Below, one piece after another: positions 2,173-20,048 of a stretch of 64,000 nt of DNA. The translations under genes were made by a program, and so were the position numbers. Under the pieces are notes generated by a model that saw only the letters and a list, made by a program, of their open reading frames with translations, did not search any database and was not told the DNA's origin. Origin of the DNA: Verrucomicrobiota bacterium (GTDB lineage Bacteria > Verrucomicrobiota > Verrucomicrobiia > Opitutales > Opitutaceae); NCBI GenBank assembly GCA_016222805.1, contig JACRQG010000033.1, positions 1-64,000 on the forward strand, read 5' to 3'. Within the stretch, counting starts at the first letter, position 1. Each line of letters begins with the position of its first letter.

Positions 2173-3921
2173 TTACTTCCTCCGCATTTCCACGCTGGCC
2201 AGGCTCACACCCGCTCCCTTCGCCTCGGCCCGGAATTCCACGCGCAGGTAGTTCACTCCGTGCCGGGCAGGTCGCCGGGCCGAAACCTCGGCCACCGTCC
2301 GGCCATCGACCGCGATGCGGATCTTCCCCGCCCGATCCAGCGCCGTCCAGTCCAGGACGATGGCATGCGGGCCCGTGCCGGTCTTCGGCCCAAGATCGTT
2401 CCACGCCACGGTCGCCACGGCATGCTCTGCCGCCCGCTCGTCATCCACTCGCGTGAAGTGATCGTTCAGGCAGAGCTGCAGGCCGGACACACCTTCTGAG
2501 GCTTCCAACCGCAGGCGAACTTCCCCGTCGGTCGCCGCGGGAAAGTTCCAGGAGGCTCCCTGACGCCCCGCGGAACTGGCGGGCAACTCCAGTCGCCGGC
2601 CGCCCTCACGGCCGGATCCGACGCGAATACCCTCCGCGCCATACTGCGTCCACGCCACCAGCCCATGGGAAAGATCGTCCTGCACCGCGGTTTCCTCCAG
2701 CCACGCCGGGTCAAAGAGGAAGAGGGCCCGCTTGCCCTCGCCCTGCCCACTCACGACGACGACGCGCCCGGAGTCGGTTTCCACCGCCGAAGGATAGGCG
2801 GTGCCCCGGTCCCCGCGCGCCACCGCCACCGTTTCCTGCCAGACTTCCCGAAATCCCCGCCAGGTCCGGCCCTCGTCGCCGCTGATGGCGGCATGGAGCA
2901 CCTCCCGACCTCCCATGGCATAGCTGCGGGGATCGGACCAGTTCTGGCACGCGTTGGTGAAGAGCACGATTCTCCCGTCCCGAAGCCGCAGCAGCCCTGC
3001 CGGTGAATCCGAGGAGATGAACTCCGTGCGCGACAGTGGCGCCCAGCGGTGTCCGTCGGAGGAAGAGGATTCCCACAGGCGACCGCCGCGATCGCGCACG
3101 AGCATCCAGACGCGATCGCGCAGTTCCAGGAGCACCGGCTCAATCGCCCCGTAGCGCGTCGCATTCGGGCCAGCCAGCGCGAGCGAGAGCGTGTCCGGCG
3201 ACAATCGCCAGGTCTGGCCCGCGTCGTCCGAGTGATACACGAAGGTGTCGTTCCAACCATGATCGGGACCGCTGGCCGGCGGTTTTTCCCGCTCCGGAAT
3301 GGCCCGCGCCACCGCGAGCACCAGCCGGCCGGTGCGGAGTTGGGTGAAACCCCGAATCGAGCCCACATAGCCCGGCACGATGCGCCGGGGCTCCGACCAG
3401 CGCGCGGCGGCGCGCACCCGGGACGCATGGTACACCTCGTAGAGCCGCCCGCGATATCCGCCCGGCCCTTCTCCGTAGAGGTGGACCACCGCGTGCAAAC
3501 CTCCATCGGCAGCCTCCAGCACCTGGACCGCGTAATACGCCTTGCCCGGGAGCGCAAAGGCGACCTCCGGCTCCGGCCACGTCAATCCACCATCGAGCGA
3601 TCGCCGAACCTCCACCGCATCGCTGGCCGGCTTGGCGATGCCATAGAGTTCCAGCGTGCCATCGCTCCGCCGCACCAGGCACATCTCGTTGGTCGGCGCC
3701 GGCCGCACCACCACGGGAGCCCGCACGGCGGCCATCGCGTCCGGTTTGGGTCGCAGCTGGATCCCGAACGGATTCGAAAACGGCTCGGCCGCGGCCACTG
3801 GCACCGCTCCCACCCAACACGCCAGCACGAGCCCGAGAGCCCGGCCAACCGACCGGAAGCGATATTTGTCCGTTGCCCGCCTGGGCGATGACACCCTCGC
3901 CTTCAACGGGAAAGGGCTCAT
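2173..3921 (-). CDS. Asp-box (sialidase-fold) secreted protein with C-terminal LamG-like domain
   Basis: 582 residues. A long signal peptide ends near residue 45 (VAAAEPF). The propeller carries Asp-boxes SLDGGLTW (about 108-115), SDDAGQTW and SGDEGRTW plus a degenerate one (SSDGHRW), the signature of the six-bladed sialidase fold. The C-terminal 150 residues form a lectin/LamG-like sandwich, with WNFP and LCLNDHF motifs shared with the protein at 11062. I see no FRIP-type arginine motif before the first Asp-box, so true sialidase (GH33) activity is doubtful. The start at 3921 overlaps the preceding stop by ATGA, so translation is probably coupled. The frame extends upstream, but that part lies inside the neighbouring gene. 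Confidence 0.8.
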   Translation of the reverse strand: MSPFPLKARVSSPRRATDKYRFRSVGRALGLVLACWVGAVPVAAAEPFSNPFGIQLRPKPDAMAAVRAPVVVRPAPTNEMCLVRRSDGTLELYGIAKPASDAVEVRRSLDGGLTWPEPEVAFALPGKAYYAVQVLEAADGGLHAVVHLYGEGPGGYRGRLYEVYHASRVRAAARWSEPRRIVPGYVGSIRGFTQLRTGRLVLAVARAIPEREKPPASGPDHGWNDTFVYHSDDAGQTWRLSPDTLSLALAGPNATRYGAIEPVLLELRDRVWMLVRDRGGRLWESSSSDGHRWAPLSRTEFISSDSPAGLLRLRDGRIVLFTNACQNWSDPRSYAMGGREVLHAAISGDEGRTWRGFREVWQETVAVARGDRGTAYPSAVETDSGRVVVVSGQGEGKRALFLFDPAWLEETAVQDDLSHGLVAWTQYGAEGIRVGSGREGGRRLELPASSAGRQGASWNFPAATDGEVRLRLEASEGVSGLQLCLNDHFTRVDDERAAEHAVATVAWNDLGPKTGTGPHAIVLDWTALDRAGKIRIAVDGRTVAEVSARRPARHGVNYLRVEFRAEAKGAGVSLASVEMRRK

Positions 3922-5135
3922 CGTCGCTCCCCGGCAAACCACGCCAGCGGCACGCTCTTGAATTTGAGCGAGAGGAGCTTCCCTCCGACGGGAAAGTGAT
4001 AGTACGTCAACAGCGCCCGTCCGGCGTGAAACGTCACGCTCGTGTACGCGTAGGTGCTGGCCGGATCCTCCTCCAGGTTTCGTCGCGGCCCCCAGGTCTT
4101 TCCTTCGTCCCGGGAAAGCATCGCAGCGAGCGGCGTGCGGGGGCCGCCATGATTTGCCCCCAGCACCGTCTTCTCCGGGTCGCCCCAGGCGACGTGGGGA
4201 TTCCACACCAACAGCCAGTCGCCCGTCCCGGGCACCACCGCCAAGGTAGCCGGGGATTCCGGCGACTCGATCCCCCACGATTCAGCCGCCGACCAGGTTT
4301 CCCCGCCGTCCTCCGAAAGCGACTGCCAGATGTAGCCGGTCTGGGTGCGGATAATCTGCAGCACGCGGCCGTCGCGCCGCTCGACGAGGCCGGGCTCCAT
4401 CGCTCCCCGCTTCGGGGCCGACACGGACGTTGGGCTGCGCCGCCAGGTGCGACCGTCGTCATCCGACAGGTACACCGAAGTGCGGAAATCGTCGTTCTTC
4501 GTCCACACCCGCGCGGTGCTGGCGACCGGCGCGAGCAGTCTCCCCGAGCGCAGTTGGATCACGCGCGCGTTGTTCATCACGTGGTAGCCGGGATCGGCGG
4601 TGACGAGCACCGGGGCACCCCACGTCTGCGCCTCGTCGGTCGACCGCCGGACGTAGACCTTCAGATCCGTCAGCGAGTTCTTCTGCAGGTAGAAGAACAG
4701 CACGTCGCCAGTCCGCGAACGCAGGAGGGAGACCGACATGACGTTGGCGCGGCCCGAGTTCTCCTGCAGGGTGGTCGGTGCTTCCCAGGTCCGACCGCCG
4801 TCCCGCGAACGCGCCGCCGAAATGCGCGCCGGCGCATCGTCGCGGGAACCGCCGTAAAACTCCGACCAGGCGGCCAGCAGGCTGCCATCGCGGCATACGA
4901 GCACGTCGGCCTCGGTGTGACGCGGGTTTTCCGTCGTGGCGCGCGCGAGGAACGACTCGATGATCTCCTCCGCCGCGGACGCCGACAGGCAGCACCCGAG
5001 GAGACCCACGCGCGCCAGGGAAAGCACGCGCGCACCGATCCGCGCGTACCGGCGGCCTTTCCTCCGACGGAGCGGCAGAGGGCCGAAGCCGCCGGATCCC
5101 CGGACGCGAGAGGCTGGCATGGAGGCCCCTGTCAT
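3918..5135 (-). CDS. Asp-box (sialidase-fold) exo-glycosidase-like secreted protein
   Basis: 405 residues from the ATG two bases after the receptor stop. A second ATG at 5120 (MPASRV) is equally possible. A basic N-region and the hydrophobic stretch LARVGLLGCCLSASAA form a signal peptide. Five Asp-boxes are visible: SRDGGRTW, STDEAQTW, SDDDGRTW, SEDGGETW and SRDEGKTW. That fits a single-domain sialidase-fold enzyme of ordinary length. No FRIP arginine motif is evident, so the sugar removed cannot be named. It lies between the TonB receptor and another Asp-box gene, which suggests joint action on one glycan at the cell surface or in the periplasm. Confidence 0.82.
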   Translation of the reverse strand: MTGASMPASRVRGSGGFGPLPLRRRKGRRYARIGARVLSLARVGLLGCCLSASAAEEIIESFLARATTENPRHTEADVLVCRDGSLLAAWSEFYGGSRDDAPARISAARSRDGGRTWEAPTTLQENSGRANVMSVSLLRSRTGDVLFFYLQKNSLTDLKVYVRRSTDEAQTWGAPVLVTADPGYHVMNNARVIQLRSGRLLAPVASTARVWTKNDDFRTSVYLSDDDGRTWRRSPTSVSAPKRGAMEPGLVERRDGRVLQIIRTQTGYIWQSLSEDGGETWSAAESWGIESPESPATLAVVPGTGDWLLVWNPHVAWGDPEKTVLGANHGGPRTPLAAMLSRDEGKTWGPRRNLEEDPASTYAYTSVTFHAGRALLTYYHFPVGGKLLSLKFKSVPLAWFAGERR

Positions 5136-5137
5136 CG

Positions 5138-8100
5138 TCAGAACTGGGTCCGAAGACCGACCGTCACCATCGTGCCGAAGTTCTGGTACGACTGCGGCCG
5201 CGTCCAGTTGGGCGTGCCGGGCCCCGCGCGCTCCGTGCGCTTGTTAGCGCCGTTGAAGTTGCGCGCGCCGCCGTAGGCGGTGAAGCGCTTGGCGAAGCGG
5301 TACTCGAACGACCAGTCCTGCGTGATCTGCGGCGCCACGTAGGAACGCGTGCCGGCCGGCACCGTGGCGCTCGCCGCGACCGCCGCGCCCGGGACCTTGT
5401 AGGCGTAGGCCACGTTGTAGCGGAGCGAGAACGATCGACGGCTGTAGCTTAGGCCCCAGTTGATGTTCTTGTGCGCGAAGTTCGTGAAGTCCTCCGCATT
5501 CGGCCCGCTCAGTTTCGCGATCGTGGCGTTGGCAAAGGTCGAGAACCCCTTTGCCCACGCCGGCAGGAAGTTCAGGTTCTGGCGCCAGCTGACCTCGTAG
5601 CCCTCGACCGTGGCATCGCCGCCGTTGGTCTTGGTGATGATCTCGTAGTCGAGGTAGTCGTCGTTCAAGCCATAGGTCTCGAGCTGCTCCAGGGTCGCGG
5701 GGCCGCGCACCTGCAGGAAGAAGTTCTTGATGTCCTTCCGGAACAGGCTGAGCGATACCACGGCGCCCCGGATGCCATAACCCTCGAACGATAGGTCGAA
5801 GTTGTCCGCCGACCACGGTTGCAGCCCGGAATTCACCACCGTCGCCGTGCGCACGGCCGCGGTGGGATCCGACACCGTGATGCTCGGCACGACCTCGCTG
5901 AGCGCCGGCCGCCCCAGCGTCTTCGCATAGGCCGCGCGCATCACCAGGTTCTCCGTGACGTAGAACGTGCCGTTGAGACTGGGATAATAGTCGGAGTAGG
6001 CGCGCTCCGCCGTCGCCCCGCGTTCCGTATAGCGGAGCTTCGCCGTGGTAAGGGCGTCGGTGGAGACGAGGATCGGGCGCCCGGTCGCATCGCGCAGCAG
6101 GTTGCCGTTGGCGTCCTGGCGGTAGGTCGCGCGGATGTCATCCTTGGGACCGGCCCCTTCATCCTCGGTCTTCTCAAAGCGCACTCCGCCGACCAGCCAG
6201 AGGCGGTTGTCGAGGAACTTGATGTCGCCGCGCACGTAGGCGGCGGAGATCGTCTCCTGGAAGAACCGCGAGTTGGCGACGCCCGACTGGTAGGCGGAGG
6301 CTTCGTTGACCGTGAACCACTCGGGGTGGGCCTGGAACAGGTCGTAGTATTTCACCGGGCTGATCCACTTCACCTTCAGGGTGTCGTTGAAGAATGACTG
6401 CCGCGACAGCGACTCGTTGGTGAGATCGTAGCTTCCGGCAAGGCGGCTGACCCCGGTGGGCGGCGCAAAGGTCCAGGTCTGCAGGATCGAGGTGCGGTCC
6501 TTGCGCTGGCGGTTGAGGTTGAAACCGGTCTTGAGGACCACCGGGTTGCTCCAGGCGAAGACCCGCGAGATGTTGGCCGACAGGCTCTTCATGTCGGTGC
6601 GAATATCCTCGGGCTGGCTGGTTGGATTGCCGAGGGTCAGCTGCGCGTTGTCGTAGGGATCGACCGGCGCCCCGGCGCGGTTCAGCACCGTCAGGCGCGG
6701 GGCATAGCGATCGTAGATGCCGTCAAAGCCCTCGCCGCGCACCACCAGCGAGCCGAGCGAGGCGGTCCCGATGGTCCGAAAGAAACCGTGCTCGAGGTCC
6801 TTGCGTTCATCCCAGCTGCGCGAGAAGTTGGCGTTGACGTCCCACTTGTAGAGAGAGCCCTCATGGAGGTACCGGAGGACCGCGGCGGAGGTGCCCCGCG
6901 TGCGGTCGCCGTAGGTCATGGTCTGCCGCACCGTGTCGTTGCCCGCCGCCGCCCCCTGCGTGAAGGTCGGGCCGCCGGTGTTGCCCGTGCCCCACGCGGT
7001 GGCGAAGACGTTCTGCCGCGTCGGCGTGTTGATCTGCACGTGCTCAACGTTCAGCCGCAGGGCGTTTTCGCGATTGATGCGCCAGTCGAAGGTGGTCGAC
7101 GCGAGCTGCCGCTCCGTCGTCTGCAGCACGTTCTGGATCGTCGAGGTCGTCAGCACCCCGCGGATCAGGTCCCACGTGGGTGAATCGTAATCCATGTCGT
7201 AGACCCGGAGCATGCTGCTGAGGTTGATCGTGAAGGCGACGGCCTTGTTGACCGGGTGGGAGTAATTGAGGTCAAAGCCCGGCTGGATCGCGCGTTCGTT
7301 GGAATGGGGATCGCTGCCCACGCGGGTGTTGAAACCCGGGGGATCGAGCCGGTGGTCCGAGTTGTAGGCCGCGTAGGTGTTGATCCGCAGCTGGCGGCGC
7401 GGGTTGGCAAAACCGCTCTTGCCGACGATGTTCACGGTGCCGCCCACGGCGTTGGCGGGACGATCGGGTGTCGGCACCTTGGTGATCTCGATCCGGTCGA
7501 CGCTGCCGGAGGAGCTGGCGGCGAGGTCGAAGTTGCGATCGATGGACGGCGAGGACACCTCCGCACCGTCGATCATGAAGATCACCCCGCCCGCCGGCAT
7601 GCCGCGGATCGAGGCCGAGCCCGCGGTCTGCGGGGCCCCGACAATCGAGATGCCAGGGGTGTACTTGAGGTACTCGCCGATATTGCCGTCGCCGAGATCC
7701 CCGATCTCGTCGAGCACCACCACATTCTTGATGTTCGGAGCATACTTCTGTTCGTTGATCGCGGCCGCCGCGGCGCTGAGGGCGGTGGCCTCCACCACAA
7801 AGTCCTCCATCCGCAACACCCCGGGTTGCGTGGCCGAGGTCTGGTTCCGGGGCAACGTAAGCTCGAAGTCGCGGCGCGTCGTCTCGCCCGCCGGCACCCG
7901 CACGGTGGAATTCTGCGCCTCGAGGCCCGTGAACGTCACCCGCAGCCGCACGTCGCCGGCGGCGACGCCGCCCAGCCGGTATTCGCCGTTTTCGTTGGTG
8001 AACGTCTCCAGCGTTGTCCCCTCGATGCTGACCCGGGCGTTGTTGAGGTAGATGCCGTTCGAGGCATTCAGCACCCGGCCCTCGATGGTCCCCATCGCAC

Positions 8101-8278
8101 CCTGCGCCCGGGAGAAGATCGGCCCCAGCACCAGGCCCAACGCAAGGAGGCCCCAGCCGGCAGTCCCTCGCAGGAATCTGCCTGGAAACAGGGTTCGCGC
8201 CGGTCGCCCTGGGTGCGTCGAAAGCTCCGAGATTGCGCCCTGGGTCAACGGGGAGGCTGGTGTAGTCACGGTTTTCAT
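5138..8278 (-). CDS. TonB-dependent receptor (outer-membrane glycan/metabolite importer)
   Basis: 1046 residues. An extended signal region ends near FSRAQG. A carboxypeptidase-regulatory-like beta-sandwich follows (GTIEGRVLNASNGIYLNNARVSIEGT). The plug comes next (VVVLDEIGDLGDGNIGEYLKYTPGISI, then VDRIEITKVPTPDRPANAVGGTVN), then the long 22-strand barrel, ending in an aromatic residue (GLRTQF). The barrel opens with the usual AYNSD/FDLNYSHP strands. The ATG at 8278 overlaps the upstream stop by ATGA. Its neighbours are three Asp-box proteins and a glycosidase, so it probably imports the oligosaccharides they release. No dedicated SusD partner was found, as is usual for this family in Opitutaceae. 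Confidence 0.9.
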   Translation of the reverse strand: MKTVTTPASPLTQGAISELSTHPGRPARTLFPGRFLRGTAGWGLLALGLVLGPIFSRAQGAMGTIEGRVLNASNGIYLNNARVSIEGTTLETFTNENGEYRLGGVAAGDVRLRVTFTGLEAQNSTVRVPAGETTRRDFELTLPRNQTSATQPGVLRMEDFVVEATALSAAAAAINEQKYAPNIKNVVVLDEIGDLGDGNIGEYLKYTPGISIVGAPQTAGSASIRGMPAGGVIFMIDGAEVSSPSIDRNFDLAASSSGSVDRIEITKVPTPDRPANAVGGTVNIVGKSGFANPRRQLRINTYAAYNSDHRLDPPGFNTRVGSDPHSNERAIQPGFDLNYSHPVNKAVAFTINLSSMLRVYDMDYDSPTWDLIRGVLTTSTIQNVLQTTERQLASTTFDWRINRENALRLNVEHVQINTPTRQNVFATAWGTGNTGGPTFTQGAAAGNDTVRQTMTYGDRTRGTSAAVLRYLHEGSLYKWDVNANFSRSWDERKDLEHGFFRTIGTASLGSLVVRGEGFDGIYDRYAPRLTVLNRAGAPVDPYDNAQLTLGNPTSQPEDIRTDMKSLSANISRVFAWSNPVVLKTGFNLNRQRKDRTSILQTWTFAPPTGVSRLAGSYDLTNESLSRQSFFNDTLKVKWISPVKYYDLFQAHPEWFTVNEASAYQSGVANSRFFQETISAAYVRGDIKFLDNRLWLVGGVRFEKTEDEGAGPKDDIRATYRQDANGNLLRDATGRPILVSTDALTTAKLRYTERGATAERAYSDYYPSLNGTFYVTENLVMRAAYAKTLGRPALSEVVPSITVSDPTAAVRTATVVNSGLQPWSADNFDLSFEGYGIRGAVVSLSLFRKDIKNFFLQVRGPATLEQLETYGLNDDYLDYEIITKTNGGDATVEGYEVSWRQNLNFLPAWAKGFSTFANATIAKLSGPNAEDFTNFAHKNINWGLSYSRRSFSLRYNVAYAYKVPGAAVAASATVPAGTRSYVAPQITQDWSFEYRFAKRFTAYGGARNFNGANKRTERAGPGTPNWTRPQSYQNFGTMVTVGLRTQF

Positions 8279-10017
8279 GGTGAAGGAAGAAGCTGGCGCA
8301 CCAACGGCGCGACGACGGGCAGGATGCGGCCGGCGAGATCCGCGTGCCCGGTTCCGTTGGGGTGGCAACCGTCGGTGGTTCGCCCCTGCAACGACTGCCC
8401 CTGCTCCTGGGCCTCGGTCCAGGCGGCGAAATGATCCACGAGAGGAACGCCGGTCTCACGGGCGACGTTGCGACAGCGTCCGGCATAGCGGGCGAGCCGT
8501 TCGTTGGGGTCTTCGCCCAGGCCGTTCCGGCGGTTCTCCTCGCCGAAGCGGGGCGGAGTCATCAACACCGGCACGATGCCCGCCGCCCGCAGGCGCCCCA
8601 CGATTTCCCGGAGATTTGCCTCGTAGCTCTCCTCACCGAGGCGCGACGCAGTCTGGCCTTCGTCGACCCAGCCGTCGTTCGTTCCATACATCACCAGCAC
8701 GAGGTGCGGGCGCTGGGCCAGCACGTCGCGATCCAGTCTCCGCAAAGCCTGGTCGGTCCGCTCCCCGCCGATCCCGAGGTTGTGCACGAGCACCTTCGCG
8801 CCGGCCTCACGCAGCGCCGCCTGCACTCGCGCACTGAACGTCTCCGTCGGCAGCACCCCCGGGCGGGCCCCGCGGGTGATCGAATCGCCCAACGCCAGCA
8901 CGCGCACGGCCGGGCCGTCCAGGGGATTCCCGACTGGCCCCAGGAAGTCGGCCTCGTTCAACGCCGCGCACAACCGCCCCTGCATCGTGGAAATCCACAG
9001 CCGCCCCGGCTCGGCCTCGAACACATAGGGGTACGCAATCCAGTAGGCTGATTCCCGCTGCCCCGCCGGGGTGGGCTGCACCGCGAAGACCTGCGGCGCC
9101 GTCCAGGTGACGCCGTCGTTCTCCGAGAAGGCGATCGACAGCTGTTCCCGGCGCCCAAGCCGTTTCACCGGGTCGCGAAAGCGGTTCCACACCAGCGCGA
9201 CGCGGCCACTCGCCAGCCGCACCAGGGTTCCCGGGGAATCGCTCGCCTCGATCGGCGCCGGTTGCGGCACGCTCCATTTCACCCCGTCGCGCGAGTTCGT
9301 CTCGTAAAAACACCCGTGCGGCACGCGCAGCAGGAGGCGCACGACCCCGTCGGCCCGTTCCAGGACGGTGCCCTCGAGTCCGCCGCCATGCGTGGTCGCC
9401 CGCAGCCCGCTCACGGGATCCCGGTAGTTTCCCGCCTCACCGAGATCGATCACGTCGCCCGCGTGCCAGTTCTGGCCGAGGTCGTCGGAGTGGTAGACGA
9501 TCGTCACGTGGCGGCCCGGATTCGCCATCGCCTTCTGGGCCACCAGCAGAACCCGGCCGTTACGGAGGCGCAGGAACTGCCGCACGGCACCGCACCATCC
9601 GTCCTGGAGCAGCACCGGCGCCTCCCAGGTCAGGCCATCATCCGAACTCCGCAGCAGGTACACCGGAATCCGGCACCCCTCCTGCGGCCCGCCCTTCTCG
9701 TCGTCCCAGAGAAACCGCTTTTCCCGCAGGTTGAGGAAGGCGAACAGCACCACTCCCTCCCGGGTGCGTAGCAGGGCCCGCTCGCCGCTAGGCTCGAAGC
9801 GCAGCGAGTCGAAGATCGCCCGGGGCGTCCACGTCCGGCCTTCATTCCGGGAAACCAACGCCCCCCGGGAGTCCATGGTCAGGATCGAGCCGTCGCCCAG
9901 CCGCACAAAGGGCCCCTGCTGCATGAACGGCAACGGGGCGGCCTTGTCGTGCAGGATCACTTCCGCCCAGGTCGACAGGGTCGGGAGCAACGCGAGCACC
10001 AGGAGGCGGAGGAACAT
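8275..10017 (-). CDS. Fusion of Asp-box (sialidase-fold) domain and SGNH/GDSL esterase
   Basis: 580 residues. The signal peptide is MFLRLLVLALLPTLSTWAEV. Residues about 20-365 carry Asp-boxes SRNEGRTW, SSDDGLTW, SDDLGQNW and SENDGVTW. Residues about 370-580 are an SGNH hydrolase: GDSIT with the nucleophile Ser (near 378), GGE (block II), GTND (block III) and DGCHPNGTGH with the Asp/His pair (near 550). An esterase fused to a sialidase-fold domain suggests removal of acyl groups together with a terminal sugar, as sialate O-acetylesterases do, but the substrate is inferred. The frame is open upstream to 10230, and MREMVAYL at 10119 behind a G-rich tract is an alternative start. Confidence 0.82.
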   Translation of the reverse strand: MFLRLLVLALLPTLSTWAEVILHDKAAPLPFMQQGPFVRLGDGSILTMDSRGALVSRNEGRTWTPRAIFDSLRFEPSGERALLRTREGVVLFAFLNLREKRFLWDDEKGGPQEGCRIPVYLLRSSDDGLTWEAPVLLQDGWCGAVRQFLRLRNGRVLLVAQKAMANPGRHVTIVYHSDDLGQNWHAGDVIDLGEAGNYRDPVSGLRATTHGGGLEGTVLERADGVVRLLLRVPHGCFYETNSRDGVKWSVPQPAPIEASDSPGTLVRLASGRVALVWNRFRDPVKRLGRREQLSIAFSENDGVTWTAPQVFAVQPTPAGQRESAYWIAYPYVFEAEPGRLWISTMQGRLCAALNEADFLGPVGNPLDGPAVRVLALGDSITRGARPGVLPTETFSARVQAALREAGAKVLVHNLGIGGERTDQALRRLDRDVLAQRPHLVLVMYGTNDGWVDEGQTASRLGEESYEANLREIVGRLRAAGIVPVLMTPPRFGEENRRNGLGEDPNERLARYAGRCRNVARETGVPLVDHFAAWTEAQEQGQSLQGRTTDGCHPNGTGHADLAGRILPVVAPLVRQLLPSP

Positions 10018-10244
10018 GGGGAGCGGGACACGCCACGCGGCGCAACCCCAGCACAGCCATGCCCACCCCCGTCGCAACCGCAAGCCACTGGTCACAAGAT
10101 ATGCCACCATTTCCCGCATTGAGCCCCCCTGCCGATTGCGCCTCAGTGACCGCCACGCGCCCGTGCCGCGCGCCGCTCCTCTGTCCGGCTTCCGCTGCCG
10201 CAACCGCCCGCTCCGCCCTTCTTTCTTCAACCCGCTTCCTCTGC

Positions 10245-11024
10245 ATGCGCCCGTCGCTCATCCGCTCCCGCCTCCGCCAGGACCAGGCCGCCCGCATCGT
10301 GTGCCTCTACTACCCGACCGCGATGCTGCCGGCCCACGCCGCCCAGGCCGGGTTCGACGCCATCTGGCTCGACACCGAGCACAGCACGTGGGACCGGCGG
10401 GAACTCCAGCGTCTCATCGCCCACCACCATCTCGCCAACATCGACTGCATTGTCCGCACCGGCAGCCGAAACGCTCCCGAGCTCTATCACCTGCTCGAGG
10501 ACGGGGCCACCGGCCTGATGATCCCGCACGTCAACTCCGCCGAGGATGCCGCCGCCCTCGCCCGCGCCGTGAAGTTCCCTCCGCTGGGCCAGCGCGGCCT
10601 GGATGGAGCCGGCCTCGACAACAACTTCTACCTCGCCGGGACCGCCGGCTACCCTGCCGCCGCCAACGCCGAGACCTTCCTGATCGTCCAAATCGAAACC
10701 CCGGAGGCGGTCGCAGCCGCCGACGCCATCGCCGCCGTCCCGGGCGTGGACGGTCTCTTCATCGGACCTGGCGACCTCTCGCTCCGCCTCGGTTGCCCCC
10801 TGGACTGGGCGAACCCGAAGATGATCGCGGCCGAAGCCGCCGTCGCCGCCGCCGCCGCGCGCCACGGCAAAGCCTGGGGTCGTCCTTCCGGATCGGCCGA
10901 GGACATCGCCGCGCTGGCCAAGAAGGGCGCGCGCCTCATCGCCCACGGAAGTGATTTCGGTGCGGTGATGAAGATGATGCCGGCGTTTGCCGAGACCCTG
11001 CGCCAGGGCCTGGGCGGAACCTGA
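10245..11024 (+). CDS. HpcH/HpaI-family aldolase
   Basis: 259 residues, the normal length for class II pyruvate aldolases of the HpaI/YfaU group. The catalytic residues of that family line up: Arg71 (VRTGS), Glu151 of QIET (metal) and Asp177 of GPGDLS (metal). GQRG near 116 matches the phosphate/carboxylate loop. It should cleave a 2-keto-3-deoxy acid sugar to pyruvate and an aldehyde. The family includes 2-keto-3-deoxy-L-rhamnonate and related aldolases. It is cytoplasmic (no signal) and divergent from the Asp-box operon. Translation could begin further upstream, but MRPSLIRSRLRQ fits family alignments. The exact substrate is not decided by sequence. Confidence 0.85.
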   Translation: MRPSLIRSRLRQDQAARIVCLYYPTAMLPAHAAQAGFDAIWLDTEHSTWDRRELQRLIAHHHLANIDCIVRTGSRNAPELYHLLEDGATGLMIPHVNSAEDAAALARAVKFPPLGQRGLDGAGLDNNFYLAGTAGYPAAANAETFLIVQIETPEAVAAADAIAAVPGVDGLFIGPGDLSLRLGCPLDWANPKMIAAEAAVAAAAARHGKAWGRPSGSAEDIAALAKKGARLIAHGSDFGAVMKMMPAFAETLRQGLGGT

Positions 11025-11061
11025 TCCGGGCGGGATCGCGCCGCTCACGTTCGCACCCCCC

Positions 11062-12945
11062 ATGCCCGGGCTTCCCCTCCGGCACCGCGGCGACCCGGCC
11101 CCCGGGACCGGGAGCGGTCGGCTGGTTCGACTCGTGCGTGCGTGGAGCTGCCGCCTGGCCCTGACTGTCTCGGCCCTGCCCTGCGGCCTGGCCGCGGCCG
11201 AACCAGCGCCGCCTCGCATGCTGCTGCAGGGTTCCGGAGAATCCCTGGCCTTCCTGCGTCTGCCGGGCGGCAGCTTCGCCTTCTACAATCGCCTGCGCCC
11301 GGAAGCCACCCCGTTCACGCTGCGCGATCGCGCGGGAGTCCCCGTATCACTCCTGCCCTCGTTGCCGGCCGACCTCGCGGGCAGTCCGGTGATTCGCGAG
11401 AGCCGCGCACTGGAAAACACGCAGGTGATCCTGACTCCAGACCGCCGCCTGATCAGCATCCAGGTCCGCGGAGAGTCGCTCGACCCGGCCACCGTGAAGC
11501 TGGTGGGCCTGCCCCGTTACCTCGATCTCTGGATGACCTCGGCGACTCCCGCGCTCGCGGCCCCTTCCCGCCGCATCTGGCGCGGGTACAACGGATCCCA
11601 GATGGAGTACCAGCAACTGCCCGACGGCCGCCTCCTCGTGCCCTTCGGCAGCATGCAGCCCCATGCGCGGGCCGCTCCGCCGACCGGACGGCATGCGACA
11701 GTTGTCCTGTACTCCGACGACGCCGGCCAGACCTGGCAGGAAAGTCCCGCCCGGCTGATCTCCCCCTGTTATGACGGCTTTAATGGCAGCAATGAAGGCG
11801 CCTGCGAGCCGTCGCTCGAAGCCCTCGCGGACGGCCGCCTCTGGATGCTGCTCCGCACGCAGGCCGGGTTCCTCTACGAGACCTTCTCCGTCGATCGCGG
11901 ACAGACGTGGACCGCGGCCACGGCCAGCCGCTTCAGCACGTCGACGGGGCCTTCCAACCTGCTCCGCCTGCCCAACGGCTGGCTCCTGCTCGCTTGGAAC
12001 AATTGCGAACTGCCCCTCCGCCACGCGGGCCAGGGTGTCTACGGCGGTCGCGACGCTCTCCACGTGGCGGTCACCGCCGACGAAGGGCGCACCTGGCGGG
12101 GGTTCCGGGAGGTTTATCTCGATCATCGTCGCAACGACAATCCGGCCCGCTCCGGCGATCGCGGCACGGCGTATCCCCTCGGAGCGTACACCAAGGAGGG
12201 CTCGATCGTGATCCTCGCCGGCCAGGGCCAGGGCGGACGGAATCCCATCCTGATCGATCCCGACTGGATCGTCGCCCGGACCGCGCGGACGGATTTCTCC
12301 GACGGCCTCGAGCAGTGGAGCGTCTACAAACACCACGGCCCCGCCAAAGGCTGGTGGCGGGCCCGCGCCGTCGGCGGCCTGCTCGTCCCCGACCCGTCGC
12401 AGCCCGCCGCCCGGTGCCTGCAGCTGCGCAGGGTCGACGACCTTCCCGCCGACGTCGGCGTGTGGAACTTCCCCAACGCGTGGAAGGGATCGCTGACGGC
12501 GCGGGTGCGTCTTCCCCGCGGGACCGCCGGCGGCCTCGTCTGCCTGAACGACCGATTCTTCGATCCATCCGAGTCGCTCGGCCAGGACTTGGCCCAGTTT
12601 CGCCTGCCAATCAACGCCGACGGGCGGGTCGGCACGGTCACGCTGGCCCCGGAGCAGTGGCACGAGCTGACCCTCACCTGGGATCTCACGGCCGGCACCT
12701 GCGCCCTGGCGGTCGATGGTCAGCCGGCCGGCTCCGTCCCCCTGGGCTACGAGACCCTCAATGGCCTCAGCTACGTGCGCTTCGCGTCGACGGCCACCGC
12801 ACGGGATCCCGCCGGGCTGCTCGTCGGCGCCGTGCGCGTCGAGGCGACCGATCCCTTCGCCCCGGCCCGCACCGCGGCCGAGCTGCGCGCCCACGAGCAA
12901 CGCTACGTCGCGCGCGTCGTGCCACGCTGGCGGCCCCCCCCCTGA
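11062..12945 (+). CDS. Asp-box (sialidase-fold) secreted protein with C-terminal LamG-like domain
   Basis: 627 residues. A basic N-region and a hydrophobic stretch ([17 protein letters not shown]) form a signal peptide. Asp-boxes: [17 protein letters not shown] and TADEGRTW. The C-terminal part (after about 420) repeats the WNFPN / VCLNDRFF / VDGQPAGSV features of the protein at 2173-3921, so the two are paralogues with the same two-domain plan. It follows the aldolase by 37 bases on the same strand and probably shares its transcript. No FRIP-like arginine motif is seen, so GH33 activity is not established. Confidence 0.82.
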
Positions 12946-14022: not shown

Positions 14023-15204
14023 TCAGGGGTCCCGCACTCCCGTCGCAGCCTTGGTGGGAATCGCGTCGTCCGCCGAGGCTGGCGGTGTGCCCGGCGCGAC
14101 AACCTCGCCGACTGGCAGGGCAGTGTAAGGCCACGCGGCCAACGCGGGTGCCCGACGCGAACCGTGCACCTCGTGACCAGCCCCCGGGCCAGGCGCCGGA
14201 TCAAACTCGCGCTTTACTCCCTCCCCCACCGCGAGGTGGAAGATCCGCACGTTTTCCACTCCCGACTCCAGGCGAAACACCCGCGCAGTGCGGTACACGG
14301 TGCAGTTCCGGGCGGTCACCCAGGCGCTCGCCCGATCCCCGCCCGATCCGCGACACCGGAAGGCAATGTCGTTTTCCACGAAAACACAGGAGTCGATCAC
14401 CGCCTGCACCTTCTCCTTCAGGTTGAGCGCCGCCCCGTTGCCGATCGCCCCGTGCCCCCACCCTAGCATCAAGGTGTGGCGAATCGTGATCCGGGCGCGC
14501 GGGCCGGCCGGCGCCACCTTGCTGTCAAACGCGTTTTCCCCGGGTCGTTCGCCGCGCCGGTAATCCGCACAGTCGCGGTCCAGCGGCCCCGTCCAGAGAA
14601 AACAGTGCTCGACCAGCACGTTGTCCCACGCCCAGGGCTCCACCTTCCGGCCGGGATCAAACTGCAGGGCATCTCCGCTCACATGGGAAATCTCCGTATT
14701 GCGCACGGTGAGGTTGAGCGGACGCCCGGTGATGCCGTGAGCGTCGAGGTTCTTCTCCGCCCGATAGGTGCCGTGGAGCAGGTGATGAATGTGGCAGTTT
14801 TCGATCCGCACATTGCGGCCGTACACCTCCACGCCGTCCCGCCGACCGTGCCGGATGGTGCAGTGGCGCAGCACGACGTCGTCCGCCGTGATTCGCACGA
14901 GATCGTGCTCTCCCCATTCGCCATCAACAAGGATGTTCTCGTACACCCCGGGTCGATCGATCACGAGGCGGGAAACGCGCTTCGCGTCCGGCCGCGCGCC
15001 GACCGGGCCCGCCAGCCCCGCAAGCACGGCCGCGGCGGCCTCGGTCAGGAACACAAAGGGCAGCGCGACGGCCAGGGCCGCCGCCAGCCGACCGGAACAC
15101 CATGCGATCGGCCGGGAGACCTCCGCCGTCCCGGGCGAGGCAGAAACGCCCCGACCACCGCTTCGAGTCAGGACCCCGACAAAGGCCCGCAGCCGACTCT
15201 TCAA
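14023..15204 (-). CDS. Right-handed parallel beta-helix protein, putative polysaccharide-active
   Basis: 393 residues from a TTG start. AGGAG sits 8 bases before the TTG, and TTGA overlaps the stop of the upstream gene, so coupling supports this start over an ATG inside the neighbour. A hydrophobic segment (about 40-70) is probably a signal or anchor. The body has repeated short strands typical of pectate-lyase-like helices (VRITADDVVLRHCTIRHG, NVRIENCHIHH, LTVRNTEISHVSGDALQF, ITIRHTLMLGWGHGAIGNG). Catalytic residues cannot be assigned. It could be a lyase, epimerase or glycan-binding protein. Confidence 0.72.
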   Translation of the reverse strand: MKSRLRAFVGVLTRSGGRGVSASPGTAEVSRPIAWCSGRLAAALAVALPFVFLTEAAAAVLAGLAGPVGARPDAKRVSRLVIDRPGVYENILVDGEWGEHDLVRITADDVVLRHCTIRHGRRDGVEVYGRNVRIENCHIHHLLHGTYRAEKNLDAHGITGRPLNLTVRNTEISHVSGDALQFDPGRKVEPWAWDNVLVEHCFLWTGPLDRDCADYRRGERPGENAFDSKVAPAGPRARITIRHTLMLGWGHGAIGNGAALNLKEKVQAVIDSCVFVENDIAFRCRGSGGDRASAWVTARNCTVYRTARVFRLESGVENVRIFHLAVGEGVKREFDPAPGPGAGHEVHGSRRAPALAAWPYTALPVGEVVAPGTPPASADDAIPTKAATGVRDP

Positions 15205-15767
15205 GTTGCCCGCTCCTTGGCGTCCGGATCCGACGCCTTCACGTAGCGGTCCAACGTCGCTCCGGGCGGCGCCCAGTCCGGCCGCCGCCGCACGTCCCTT
15301 TCGCCGGCGACCGAACCCGGCGCCGCGTGTTCTCCGCGCTCCCCGGCCGGCCGCAGCTCCCACCAACATTGGCCACCGTGGTTGTGCTCATGGTCGATGG
15401 TGAACCCCGCCTCGCGCATCAGGGGTCCGACCCAACCCATGCAATGGTCGCAATAGTCACGGTACTGCTCGAGGCCGTTGCGCAACAAGAACCCCTTGGA
15501 GGGACACTGGTGCATGTCGATCCGGAACACCCCCGGTTGATCGGTGATGGCAAAGCCAAGGTCCGGTGACTCCTCCGTCAGCGTGTGCCCCCAGTATTTT
15601 CCCATCCCGGCAAAGCCCTCGCCCTGGATCAGCTCCCGCGCGTGCCGCTGGCTGTCGCGGTAGATGGCCTGCTCCCAGTACTCGCGCACCAGGGCGTGAC
15701 CGCCCTGCCGCTCCAGCCACGCAAAGGTCCACTCGTAGTGTCCGCAGAAATCGTAACAGCCAATCAT
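15201..15767 (-). CDS. Small Cys/His protein, paralogue of 15814-16341; function unknown
   Basis: 188 residues with no signal peptide. The core (about 20-130) has KYWGHTLTEES, a beta segment, then QCPSKG, YCDHC and GGQCWWEL. The order CP - CxxC - C is also present in the adjacent gene, so the two are diverged paralogues. The pattern is reminiscent of the L-2-amino-thiazoline-4-carboxylate hydrolase-like family, whose active site uses Cys, but this is a tentative resemblance. After residue 135 the sequence becomes low-complexity and polar. It is translationally coupled to the beta-helix gene through TTGA. Confidence 0.68.
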   Translation of the reverse strand: MIGCYDFCGHYEWTFAWLERQGGHALVREYWEQAIYRDSQRHARELIQGEGFAGMGKYWGHTLTEESPDLGFAITDQPGVFRIDMHQCPSKGFLLRNGLEQYRDYCDHCMGWVGPLMREAGFTIDHEHNHGGQCWWELRPAGERGEHAAPGSVAGERDVRRRPDWAPPGATLDRYVKASDPDAKERAT

Positions 15768-15813
15768 GGGAAGAGGGGGTGCTTTCCTGGGTCCGACTTG
15801 CCGTGCCCGGCTC

Positions 15814-16341
15814 TCATGCCGGCACGGTCGTGATCGCCGCCGGGTCCTGCGGCGGCAGCGCGGCCTCTGGCTCCGCGTAGGTGTGGCAGCATGCTCCGTT
15901 GCCCCCCGCGAGCCGCATGATCATCCCCGCTGCTTCGGCCCGTGCCCGGCCAAGGTGATAACAGTGCTGGCAGAACTCCGGGACGATTTCCCGGCCGCCG
16001 GCCCGCAGGTGACGGATCGCCGGGCAGACTCGCACCCGCACCTCCACCCGATCGGGCTGCTCCACCACCTCCACGTCGGACCCCGGTTCCGCCGCAAAAA
16101 AGGTCCGCCAGTACGAAGCGACCGCCGGCAGCCGGCCTTCCCGCCACCGACGATTGGCCGGCGCATGATACGCGCGGCCCATCTCCTCGAGGTAACGCAC
16201 CCAGCCCTCGCGGCCCAGGCGCGTGAGCAGGAAGCGAAAGGTCGCATTGATCGCGAAATAGAAGTCCGCCGAACCGACCGGCTTGGTGTCGGTGTAGGGC
16301 AGCGGGGACGGTGCGGTTGGGCGGTTGTCTTCGGAGGGCAC
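15814..16341 (-). CDS. Small Cys/His protein, paralogue of 15201-15767; function unknown
   Basis: About 175 residues from a GTG at 16341. The ATG at 16428 would give 204 residues but would overlap the start of the divergent regulator and read through the lower-GC promoter gap, so I prefer the shorter form. Motifs: SYWRTFF, VEQPDRVEVRVRVCPAIRH, EFCQHC and NGACCHTY, matching position for position the CP, CxxC and Cys/His elements of the next gene. The conserved Cys may be catalytic or bind metal. It is first in a three-gene minus-strand operon ending with the beta-helix protein. The divergent GntR/LacI-type regulator is the obvious candidate controller. Confidence 0.66.
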   Translation of the reverse strand: MPSEDNRPTAPSPLPYTDTKPVGSADFYFAINATFRFLLTRLGREGWVRYLEEMGRAYHAPANRRWREGRLPAVASYWRTFFAAEPGSDVEVVEQPDRVEVRVRVCPAIRHLRAGGREIVPEFCQHCYHLGRARAEAAGMIMRLAGGNGACCHTYAEPEAALPPQDPAAITTVPA

Positions 16342-16388
16342 GGTGCGTTCGTGGGGAGGCCCGCAGGCACCGACAATCAGAGTTGTTC

Positions 16389-16398
16389 TTCCGCGGAA
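16389..16398. promoter_or_regulatory. Candidate operator palindrome TTCCGCGGAA
   Basis: A perfect 10-bp palindrome (TTCCGCGGAA) sits in the short divergent gap between the Cys/His operon and the GntR/LacI hybrid regulator, in a locally lower-GC stretch. Its place fits an autoregulatory operator. No second copy was noticed, so this is weak evidence. Confidence 0.3.
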
Positions 16399-16426
16399 AA
16401 CGAGTCCCTTCTCGTGGTCACATTTC

Positions 16427-17527
16427 ATGAACAGTTCGCCCGGTGTCCTCGAGTTGCCCCGCCGGATGACGCTGGCCACCCAGGCCGCGGAATCACTCCG
16501 CCGGGCCATCGCCGGGCACCTGTGGCGCGACTTCCTGCCGAGCGAGCGGCGCCTCTGTGATCTCCTGCAGGTCAGTCGCCCGACGGTGCGCGCGGCCTTG
16601 CGCCAGCTGGCTTCCGAAGGGCGCATCGCCATCACCCAGGGCCGGCGGATCCGCCTCGTCACCCACCCGGCACCGGCGCGCCTGCCGCGCAGCCGCGTCG
16701 TGGCCCTGGTGTCCCACCAGCCGCTCAGTCAGCTCGCCCATACCTCCTTCCAGGGCATCAGCGAGATGCGGACCCAACTCGCCCGCCAGGGATTCCGCAT
16801 CGATGAGTTTGTGTGCAGCGGCCGCACGGCCGCGACCCAGATTCGCCGGCTCGAAACCTACCTGCGCCAGAATCGCGTCCTCGGTTGCGTGCTGTCCTCG
16901 GTCAGCCGCGAGGTGCAGCAGTGGCTGGCCGCCCAGAAAGTCCCCGTCCTGGTGCTCGGCTCCTGCCACGCCAGTGTCGAACTGCCCTCACTCGACGTGG
17001 ATTACCGCGCCGTCTGCCGCCACGCGGCGGGCATCTTTCGGCGCCATGGGCACCGCCAGCTCGCCTTCCTGGTGCCGGATCTCGGCATCGCGGGCGATTT
17101 GGTGAGCGAAGCGGGGTTCCAGGAAGGCGCCAGTGCGCCACCCGGCGGAGGCGAAGTCCGGGCAACGCTCGTCCGCCACAACGGCACGCCGGCCGACCTC
17201 CTGGCGCGTCTGGGGGCGCTATTCCGCTCCCCCAGCCCGCCAACCGCACTGCTGGTCGCGCGGCCGGTGCACACCATCGGCGTGCTCGCGCACCTGCTGC
17301 GGCAGGGTTTCCGGGTGCCGGAAAACCTTTCCCTCATCGCCCGCGATCACGACCCGCTCTACCAGGACTACGTGGCGCACTACGCCTTCGCGGATGGGAC
17401 CCTGTCCCATCGACTGTCGCGCCTCGTGCTCCAGATGGCACACCGCGGACATCTCTCGAATGCTCCTGAGCTGATCTTTCCCCGGTACGTCGCGCGCGAC
17501 ACCGTGCGGGCCCCGGTCGTCCGGTAG
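16427..17527 (+). CDS. GntR-type HTH / LacI-type sensor hybrid transcriptional regulator
   Basis: 366 residues. The N-terminus is a GntR winged helix (residues about 12-75: LRRAIAGHLWRDFLPSERRLCDLLQVSRPTVRAALRQLASEGRIAI). Residues about 90-360 form a periplasmic-binding-protein-like sensor of the LacI/GalR class (SRVVALVSHQ, VLGCVLSS, VPVLVLGS, DYRAV, HGHRQLAFLVPD). Such hybrids sense sugars or sugar derivatives. A second in-frame ATG at 16466 would still keep the HTH. It is divergent from the operon ending at 14023 and upstream of the Gfo/Idh/MocA operon. Either may be its target. Confidence 0.82.
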   Translation: MNSSPGVLELPRRMTLATQAAESLRRAIAGHLWRDFLPSERRLCDLLQVSRPTVRAALRQLASEGRIAITQGRRIRLVTHPAPARLPRSRVVALVSHQPLSQLAHTSFQGISEMRTQLARQGFRIDEFVCSGRTAATQIRRLETYLRQNRVLGCVLSSVSREVQQWLAAQKVPVLVLGSCHASVELPSLDVDYRAVCRHAAGIFRRHGHRQLAFLVPDLGIAGDLVSEAGFQEGASAPPGGGEVRATLVRHNGTPADLLARLGALFRSPSPPTALLVARPVHTIGVLAHLLRQGFRVPENLSLIARDHDPLYQDYVAHYAFADGTLSHRLSRLVLQMAHRGHLSNAPELIFPRYVARDTVRAPVVR

Positions 17528-17931: not shown

Positions 17932-19257
17932 ATGCCAACGTCCAACCTGCCCCGCCGCCCCCTGCCTGCCTCCCGCCGCGATTTCCTGAAGCTCTCCGCC
18001 GGTTTCACCACCGGTGCCCTGGCCGGGGTCGCCCTGCCGCGCTCGGTCTTCGCCGCCGGGAGCGACCGCATCCGCGTCGGCTTGATCGGTTGCGGCAACC
18101 GGGGCACCGCCGCCGCCATCGACGCCCTCGACGCCGACCCCGGCGTACACCTCGTGGCGATGGCCGATCTCTTTGCCGACCGGCTCGCCGCCTCCCTGAC
18201 GAAGATCAAGGCCCGCGCTCCGGAACGCGTGCTCGTCGACGCGGACCACTCCTTCACCGGCTTCGACGGCTGGCGGCACGTGATGGCGGCCAGCGACGTC
18301 GTGCTCATCGCCTGCGCCTCGCGCTTTCACCCGCGGTACCTGCGCGCCGCCGTGGATGCCGGCAAACACGTCTTCGTCGAGAAGCCGCACGGAATCGACC
18401 CGGCCGGCATTCGCGCCACGCAGGAGGCCGCCGATCTCGCCCGCACCAAGGGCCTCAGCGTCGTCTCCGGCCTGCACAACCGCTTCGACCAAGGCGTCCG
18501 CGAAACCGTCCAGCGGATCCACGACGGCCAGATCGGCGACGTCGTCGCGATGGAGGTGAACTTCCTGCGCGCCCCCTACGTGCTCGTCGAACGCCAGCCG
18601 GGCTGGAGTGAAATCGAGTTCCAGTACCGCAACTGGTATCACTTCTCGTGGCTCTCGGGCGACGACGTGACCCAGTCGCTGGTGCACAACCTCGATAAGG
18701 CCTGCTGGGTGATGAAGGAGGAGCCGCCGCTGAAAGCGCACGGTCTCGGGGGCCGCTCGGCGTCGTTCGGCCCCGTGTACGGCGACATGTTCGATCATCA
18801 TTCCGTCGTCTACGAATACGCCAACGGCACCCGGCTCTACGCCTTTTGCCGCACGCAGAAGGAATGCTACGGCGGCATCTCGGATCACATCATCGGCACC
18901 AAGGGCCGCGCCTCCCTCCTCAATTACATGATCCGGGGCGAGAAAAACTGGGATCTCCCGGCAAAGCCACCCCACCCGTACAAACAGGAGCAGCGCGAGT
19001 TCTTCGCCGGCATCCGCGCGGGCAAGCCGCTCAACTCCGGAGCCTACATGGCCAACAGCACCATGGTGGCCGTGCTCGGCCAGATCGTCTGCTACACCGG
19101 GCGCCAGCTGGGCTGGAAGAAGGCCATCGCCTCGGACTTTGCCTTCCCGCCGCCCGGAGATGTGGACTTCACCACGCCACCTCCCATCGTGCCCGGCCCC
19201 GACGGTCAGTATCCCATCGCCATTCCCGGCAAGACGAAGCTGATCGCCGGCACATGA
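17932..19257 (+). CDS. Tat-exported Gfo/Idh/MocA-family oxidoreductase
   Basis: 441 residues. The twin-arginine signal SRRDFLKLSAG is at 14-24, with cleavage near FAAGSD. The Rossmann dinucleotide loop GLIGCGNRG is at 50-58, and the family EKPHG motif, with its catalytic-site Lys, is at 150-154. Export through Tat means folding with NAD(P) in the cytoplasm, as in Gfo of Zymomonas. It probably oxidises or epimerises a sugar derivative in the periplasm. The stop overlaps the next gene's ATG (ATGA), making a tight three-gene operon with the ThuA-like and isomerase genes. That grouping is known from 3-keto-sugar pathways (ThuA/ThuB), but the substrate is not deducible. Confidence 0.9.
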   Translation: MPTSNLPRRPLPASRRDFLKLSAGFTTGALAGVALPRSVFAAGSDRIRVGLIGCGNRGTAAAIDALDADPGVHLVAMADLFADRLAASLTKIKARAPERVLVDADHSFTGFDGWRHVMAASDVVLIACASRFHPRYLRAAVDAGKHVFVEKPHGIDPAGIRATQEAADLARTKGLSVVSGLHNRFDQGVRETVQRIHDGQIGDVVAMEVNFLRAPYVLVERQPGWSEIEFQYRNWYHFSWLSGDDVTQSLVHNLDKACWVMKEEPPLKAHGLGGRSASFGPVYGDMFDHHSVVYEYANGTRLYAFCRTQKECYGGISDHIIGTKGRASLLNYMIRGEKNWDLPAKPPHPYKQEQREFFAGIRAGKPLNSGAYMANSTMVAVLGQIVCYTGRQLGWKKAIASDFAFPPPGDVDFTTPPPIVPGPDGQYPIAIPGKTKLIAGT

Positions 19258-20048
19258 AAGCGCCCGGCCTCGCGCTGTCGCTCTGGGCTCTCGCCGTCGT
19301 CGCGCGGGCTGCCGACGCGGCCTCGGCCGCCTATCCCTACCCCGGGCCGCCCGCCCCGGAACCGAAGCCGCTGCAGGTCCTCCTGCTGACCGGCTGTGAC
19401 TACCCGGGCCACCTCTGGCGCCAGACGACACCGGTGCTGGCGGCCGCGTTGCGGGCCGATCCGCGCGCCGACGTGCGCGTGGTCGAGGACGCCCATTTCG
19501 CCGACTCGTCCGCCCTCTCCCGCTACCACGTCATCGTGCTGCACTACATGAACTGGCGCACGCCGGCCCCGGGCGAGGCCGCCCGGGCCAACCTGCACCG
19601 CTTCGTTACGAATGGCGGCGGCCTGGTGCTGGTGCACTTTGCCTGCGGCGCCTGGCTCGACTGGCCGGAGTTCGTGCAGCTCGCCGGCCGCGTCTGGGAT
19701 CCGCGCCGGCGCGGTCACGACCCGCGCGGGCCGTTCCGCGTCGAAATCACGGATCCCAACCACCCGATCACGCGCGGGCTCACGGCGTTCGACACCGACG
19801 ACGAACTCTACACCTGCCTCGCCGGCTCCCCGCCGATCACCGTGCTCGCGCAGGCCACCTCCAAGGTCGATCGCCAGGCCCATCCCATGGCGTTCGTCCT
19901 CGAGGTCGGCCGGGGCCGCGTCTTCCACTCGCCGCTCGGCCACGACGTCAAGGCTTTCGGTCCGGCCACCCTGGAACTTTTCCGTCGCGGCGTGGCCTGG
20001 GCCGCCGGTCTGCCGCCAGTGGCACCTGCTCCTTCCTCCTCCCCATGA
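19254..20048 (+). CDS. ThuA-like domain protein (type 1 glutamine-amidotransferase-like)
   Basis: 264 residues. A signal peptide (MKAPGLALSLWALAVVARAADA) is followed by a ThuA fold at about 40-255: VLLLTGCDYPGHLWRQTTPVL, YHVIVLHYMNWRTP, GGGLVLVHFACGAW, ITDPNHPITRGL, and GRGRVFHSPLGHD near the C-terminus. The class I amidotransferase nucleophile is replaced (the strand-turn reads VHFACGAW). ThuA proteins are linked to disaccharide or 3-keto-glucoside metabolism. The start is set by the ATGA overlap with the oxidoreductase, and the stop overlaps the next ATG in the same way. Confidence 0.88.
   Translation: MKAPGLALSLWALAVVARAADAASAAYPYPGPPAPEPKPLQVLLLTGCDYPGHLWRQTTPVLAAALRADPRADVRVVEDAHFADSSALSRYHVIVLHYMNWRTPAPGEAARANLHRFVTNGGGLVLVHFACGAWLDWPEFVQLAGRVWDPRRRGHDPRGPFRVEITDPNHPITRGLTAFDTDDELYTCLAGSPPITVLAQATSKVDRQAHPMAFVLEVGRGRVFHSPLGHDVKAFGPATLELFRRGVAWAAGLPPVAPAPSSSP

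Follow-up and report, generated by a model that had tools for sequence, protein, structure and literature searches.

In Escherichia coli, the zinc protein YhcH (DUF386, PF04074) opens cyclic sialic acid to the open-chain substrate of NanA, while NanM is described as performing ring opening in the periplasm only, and the authors of that study expect further examples (PMC8141875). With respect to protein fold, the zinc ligands reported for DmpR are Cys151, Glu172, Cys177 and Cys185 (PMC7264223), low-similarity paralogs of the Bet3/TRAPP group are reported to act as homo- or heterodimers (PMC2253512), and a methanogen domain has been likened to the HNOB, V4R and ATC (L-2-amino-thiazoline-4-carboxylate) hydrolase domains, with a three-cysteine cluster common to it and the latter two (PMC5847659). 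Here we analyze a stretch of 64,000 nucleotides (the window; contig JACRQG010000033.1, positions 1 to 64,000, assembly GCA_016222805.1) from a 7.9-Mb genome of an Opitutaceae member of the Verrucomicrobiota, in which two neighboring genes, A and B, encode small Cys/His proteins. We tentatively propose, at somewhat less than even confidence, that A and B (A/B) form a heteromeric metal protein that serves the pyruvate-aldolase step when 2-keto-3-deoxy (ulosonic) sugar acids are broken down.

A and B are true paralogs, as an earlier note on this DNA had stated. The two proteins share 24% identity over 136 columns by BLASTP (E 1e-6 for the single comparison), and their profiles align in hhalign with 98.9% probability (E 2e-17 over 147 columns). 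At E≤0.001, each gene has matches in 39 of 200 genomes of the family, counts that include the window's own genome along with a few matches that are weak or partial, and B or a distant relative is present in 56 of 387 genomes of the phylum. A tblastn search of a plasmid collection returned no gene B. The comparisons below use 80 named loci, which are the best 80 of 142 confirmed relatives of B, and a second set of 20 loci drawn from the phylum outside the family (two belong to the same order); one locus appears in both sets, as L150 in the first and L223 in the second. Gene calls in these relatives are simple choices of open reading frames (ORFs), some of them wrong, and all counts rest on tblastn, hidden Markov model or Pfam placements. 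Nearly all of the 80 named loci belong to Opitutaceae, Opitutae or other Verrucomicrobiota. One outlier is from an Actinomycetota assembly, perhaps a mislabelled bin, and another from Candidatus Anammoximicrobium, which we take to be a planctomycete.

Gene A adjoins B and is placed before it in 76 of the 80 named loci. The genes overlap in 73 of these 76 pairs (59 by 4 nt, 13 by 7 nt and one by 1 nt), with small gaps in the other three, and such overlaps would usually be a sign of coupled translation. The window is an exception to this arrangement, with a gap of 46 nt between A and B. Among the unpaired loci, the sequence of L108 starts within A at a contig edge, L113 holds only a remnant of A, and no A was found in the 900 nt upstream of B in L144 and L170. 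In L113 (positions 1-2516), two ends of A remain between a DHDPS gene and an intact B, and the same metagenome-assembled genome has an intact pair on another contig (L102). Pair order is also retained in a distant clade whose A shares ~20% identity with its window counterpart: 17 of the 18 loci L185-L202 contain A, and the one without it, L201, is a short stretch of 1997 bases. We are confident that A and B act as one two-subunit unit.

Both proteins carry the series CP - CxHC - GxC, which bears out the shared CP - CxxC - Cys/His pattern of the earlier note, and these residues are invariant in 32/32 B and 33/33 A proteins of our first alignments. In the larger alignment of B, Cys106, Cys109, Cys134, His108, Pro89, Glu66 and Tyr105 are invariant in all 68 rows and Cys88 is kept in 67. 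All four cysteines of A are kept in the 49 rows of the near clade (A residues are numbered from a stretch one codon longer than the gene, 15814-16344). Because B keeps its Cys set while distant A proteins lose most of theirs, B is the likely metal-site subunit; B would carry the site, and A would complete or support it.

The AlphaFold models of A and B (pLDDT, predicted local distance difference test, 93.7 and 91.1) have structural neighbors in common: Bet3/TRAPP, BcsD, the phenol sensors PoxR/MopR/DmpR, and H-NOX. Scores are modest, with a best Foldseek E of 3.2e-3 for A (Z 8.2, root-mean-square deviation (RMSD) 3.6 over 133 aa) and of 4e-2 for B (Z 7.1, RMSD 3.9 over 132 aa), and the models appear to resemble the Bet3 / V4R phenol-sensor / H-NOX fold group. 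The published similarity among HNOB, V4R and ATC hydrolase domains (PMC5847659) strengthens this link. Bet3/TRAPP subunits are the top fold matches of both models, but these are trafficking proteins of eukaryotes and some archaea, and the likeness is one of fold. The V4R sensor domains of PoxR, MopR and DmpR match B at Z 5.7 and A at Z 6.4, and DmpR is described as binding zinc via three Cys and one Glu (PMC7264223). Unlike the V4R regulators, A and B stand alone, without the further domains of these proteins. V4R (PF02830) is absent from the 19 Pfam families that match 68 B proteins, and from the 22 that match 66 A proteins, at E≤1. Searches of PDB sequences with A and B, as single sequences and as profiles, gave nothing convincing (best E 0.098), and NCBIfam gave no meaningful match for A, B or one B ortholog.

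These non-enzymatic neighbors (Bet3, the PoxR/MopR/DmpR sensor domains and H-NOX are the nearest solved folds) would also suit a different role, in which A/B is a V4R-like ligand-binding sensor or allosteric partner that controls the aldolase, a transporter or the regulator. We consider this unlikely, as neither protein has an output domain and only 10 of the 80 named loci have the hybrid regulator described below near B.

The ATC hydrolases offer a second point of comparison, and the earlier note had named them as a lead. PF14196 (ATC_hydrolase) matches 16 of 68 B proteins and 22 of 66 A proteins at E≤1, with best E-values of 0.0031 for B and 3.3e-5 for A, the latter at an estimated ~25 bits; the gathering score is 28.1 bits, and the window proteins reach 18.8 (B) and 13.1 (A). 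A conserved set of Cys, Cys-x2-Asp and Cys is invariant in the four ATC hydrolase members that we aligned, and C107, C125, C128 and C152 of A align with C172, C188, D191 and C215 of one such enzyme, although the profile comparison, made with these four sequences only, gives this a probability of 9.4%. For B the probability is 0.1%, and the Cys set is not aligned. In this alignment, A places C, C-x2-(C/D) and a late C much as the ATC hydrolase does. The two annotated members examined are single genes, whereas A/B is a pair, and nothing here points to the same substrate for A/B. Of 115 genomes of the phylum, two have a PF14196 match, in neither case at an A/B locus. Two other families compete at this level of score: SnoaL_2 matches 29 of 66 A proteins (best E 3.1e-4), more than PF14196 does, and AVR-Pik_HID matches 5 of 68 B proteins with a slightly better best E for B (0.0019). 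We set both aside because neither recurs in both paralogs.

The weak recurrence of PF14196 in both families, together with the aligned invariant residues, could indicate that A/B is an ATC hydrolase-like, metal-dependent hydrolase of a ring C-N, C-S or C-O bond, acting on a modified sugar acid before the aldolase. This seems improbable to us in view of matches that all fall below the curated cut-off, the wider coverage of A by SnoaL_2, the slightly better best E of another model for B, the low profile probabilities, and neighboring genes none of which suggests a substrate with a nitrogen- or sulfur-containing ring. The lead, though weak, falls in the right neighborhood for A/B, but Pfam membership fails.

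The genomic linkage of A/B to pyruvate aldolases is well supported. In the other-family set, tblastn places a gene similar to DHDPS or N-acetylneuraminate lyase (NAL) no more than 2 kb from B at 13 of the 20 loci; Pfam placements also give 13, and the union is 14. About 0.08 would be expected by chance from 81 DHDPS matches in ~86 Mb of these 20 genomes. Twelve of the 13 linked genes are upstream of B on the same strand. For HpaI, the second aldolase type, 9 of 26 genomes of the family have a gene no more than 5 kb from B (expected 0.24). At a distance of up to 5 kb from B, DHDPS occurs in 14 of the 80 named loci, HpaI in 30, and one or the other in 43. The first 34 loci hold DHDPS in 12, HpaI in 11 and either in 22, so one of them has both. 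A NanM-like Kelch gene, a family assignment checked on examples, occurs in 34 of the 80 named loci, and an SSS or MFS transporter also in 34.

By Pfam match and catalytic residues, the linked DHDPS/NAL gene encodes a class I aldolase: of 26 linked rows, 25 keep the Schiff-base Lys and the Tyr of this class, and the remaining one is a fragment (rows L150 and L223 represent a single locus, and L218 and L224 look like another subgroup). The enzyme of L074 matches PF00701 at E 1e-34 and both the NAL and DHDPS models, below the equivalog cut-off. The earlier note's expectation of an undescribed pathway is likely to hold, with a recurring set of A and B, often joined by a pyruvate aldolase, a NanM-like Kelch protein and a transporter. 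The unit of that note needs redrawing, and the window aldolase at 10245-11024 lies beyond its coordinates. Two further proteins recur near B: a ~511-aa protein (L066:11053-12588), which neither Pfam nor NCBIfam matches at E 1e-5, has matches no more than 5 kb from B in 12 of the 80 named loci, and a 759-aa protein with Amidohydro_2 and class III aminotransferase domains (L143:2928-5207) has matches within 5 kb of B in 5 of 80.

The position of A/B beside aldolases, often with a NanM-like gene, is that of YhcH, a small protein encoded with an NAL-type aldolase in many loci, and metal chemistry is proposed for A/B as well. Unlike YhcH, A/B consists of two genes, and its role is a proposed one. 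DUF386 is not among the Pfam families matched at E≤1 by the window proteins, the 68 B proteins or the 66 A proteins. Across 26 genomes of the family, a DUF386 gene accompanies HpaI at a distance of 2.5 kb or less in six cases (expected 0.17), while DUF386 is absent from the 5 kb around A/B at all 26 loci, as if aldolases had either DUF386 or A/B as a partner type. The six genomes of the 26 with HpaI and DUF386 so close together, in each case away from A/B (G007, G073, G105, G115, G162 and G183), raise the prospect that a YhcH-like protein may serve class II aldolases too. One gene string from another family (L229:1326-10725) includes DUF386, two DHDPS genes, A and B, with a later BNR match, and places A/B in a sialic-acid-like setting.

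Our proposal builds on the paralogy, the near-obligate pairing, the mostly overlapping genes, the fold resemblance, the Cys set of B and the aldolase linkage. From these we infer a heterodimer, a bound metal (zinc or other) and a reaction. A and B would be subunits of a heteromeric protein that probably binds zinc or another metal and has a Bet3/V4R/H-NOX-like fold, and whose metal site would open the ring of a cyclic keto acid so that the open-chain form reaches the aldolase. That A/B serves an aldolase pathway is probable. That it is a ring-opener, by analogy with YhcH, is our leading guess for the reaction, although one of rather low probability, and we are a shade more doubtful of the fully specified version, in which A/B is a heterodimeric metal 'openase' of Bet3/V4R-like fold, unrelated to YhcH and NanM, that feeds open-chain ulosonic acids to class I or class II aldolases. 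Algal Kdn and Kdo are examples of such acids and might plausibly be natural substrates (PMC6200933). No account of these proteins was found among the top matches of a full-text search of open-licence articles.

Several observations weigh against this proposal. The Foldseek E-values of both models are weak, designed proteins occupy ranks 2 to 4 for A at E 4.5e-3 to 4.8e-3, nearly equal to Bet3, and Z scores of 8.2 (A) and 7.1 (B) lie within a range that can reflect a mere common arrangement. In the 17 distant rows of A, Cys107 is kept in 14, Cys125 in 8, Cys152 in 8 and Cys128 in none. BNR genes are abundant, with 50 matches in the window's own genome, and the sialidase-like setting is therefore weak evidence. 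The co-occurrence of DUF386 and A/B in L229 speaks against simple replacement, and a DUF386 gene is present somewhere in 41 of 46 genomes with A/B. Finally, no aldolase was detected in 37 of the 80 named loci, a count from one DHDPS and two HpaI queries that may miss divergent enzymes, and neither aldolase is present in 24 of the 49 loci with full 5-kb flanks.

The lack of an aldolase within 5 kb at half of the full-flank loci lowers our confidence in the pathway and in the overall proposal. This gap, and neighbors that vary widely (SDR, Gfo/Idh, amidohydrolase and FGGY kinase), would fit a reading in which A/B acts in a different sugar pathway and has aldolases only as frequent neighbors in catabolic clusters. 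We give that reading little credence, since the aldolase linkage is far above chance and the order DHDPS-A-B reappears in loci whose A retains only ~20% identity to that of the window.

All four genes of the earlier note are present as ORFs where it placed them (Table 1). Reading-frame checks favor GTG 16341 as the start of A, and ATG 16427 rather than the ORF-opening TTG 16325 as the start of the regulator, which is a genuine GntR/LacI hybrid (GntR E 7.1e-11 and Peripla_BP_3 E 3.6e-11, both above the Pfam cut-off). The beta-helix assignment also stands. Gene order in the window agrees with an operon that ends in the beta-helix gene, and it is here only that one could see A, B and the beta-helix protein, under the regulator, as a pathway of their own. 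We regard this as very improbable, as the beta-helix gene is not conserved with A/B: tblastn found it in none of 100 other loci examined, and 149 other genomes of the family yield a single weak match (E 2.5e-4). A homolog of the regulator is located no more than 5 kb from B in 10 of the 80 named loci; in 8 of these it is divergent and just upstream. Neither gene is supported as a defining member of the unit, and of the proposed operon only the A-B pair is co-conserved. The palindrome TTCCGCGGAA of the divergent region has a similar counterpart in L097 only, among 8 other loci compared; we claim no conserved operator, and a role for it as an operator is weakly suggested at most. A scan for sigma-70-like promoters found none.

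Table 1 Features of the A/B locus in the window.
Feature	Position	Strand	Basis and details
Gene A, small Cys/His subunit (CP, CQHC, GAC)	15814..16341	minus	175 aa from GTG 16341; ORF, AlphaFold model
Gene B, Cys/His subunit, Cys set kept in all clades examined	15201..15767	minus	188 aa; ORF, AlphaFold model
Beta-helix protein ORF	14023..15369	minus	PF13229 (Beta_helix) E 6.6e-8; probable true start close to 15150
GntR/LacI-type hybrid regulator, divergent from A	16427..17527	plus	PF00392 and PF13377
Divergent promoter region	16342..16426		Contains palindrome TTCCGCGGAA
HpcH/HpaI class II pyruvate aldolase, window aldolase nearest A/B	10245..11024	plus	PF03328 E 1.3e-28
BNR_2 sialidase-like protein	3918..5135	minus	PF13088 E 7.8e-38
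BNR_2 protein	2173..4278	minus	PF13088 E 2.1e-23
BNR_2 protein with GDSL esterase domain	8275..10230	minus	PF13088 and PF13472
BNR_2 protein	10987..12945	plus	PF13088 E 5.1e-20
TonB-dependent receptor, probable outer-membrane importer of the locus	5138..8368	minus	Plug domain E 3.4e-11

Besides the four BNR_2 proteins and the TonB receptor, Pfam places an esterase in the window. The best solved relatives of the sialidase-like BNR_2 protein are sialidases (E 4e-13 over 64 residues), and those of the HpaI aldolase include 2-keto-3-deoxy sugar acid aldolases. Signal peptides could not be told apart by a crude hydrophobicity test, in which a DHDPS enzyme scored as high as Kelch proteins, and the cellular location of A/B is therefore one that we infer. 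In the window, the BNR proteins would release a sugar acid outside the cell, which would enter via the TonB receptor and be cleaved by the HpaI aldolase, and the GntR/LacI regulator would mediate induction. A 733-aa ORF that adjoins the BNR genes (203-2404) has no Pfam match at E 1e-6. Following the regulator, positions 17932-20917 hold Gfo/Idh oxidoreductase, ThuA-like and xylose-isomerase-like TIM-barrel genes, which probably form a sugar cluster of their own.

The A/B pair is retained down to ~20% identity of one partner and in several families of the phylum, and it reaches no curated family cut-off. If our proposal is true, it would provide a bacterial branch of this fold group, to which Bet3 and the zinc-binding phenol sensors also belong, with a function, and would represent a second, independently evolved answer to a recently recognized metabolic problem, across a whole phylum. 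Should A/B open sugar-acid rings, aldolase-feeding enzymes would have arisen more than once, and these bacteria would possess an unrecognized route for algal or other ulosonic acids in their habitats.

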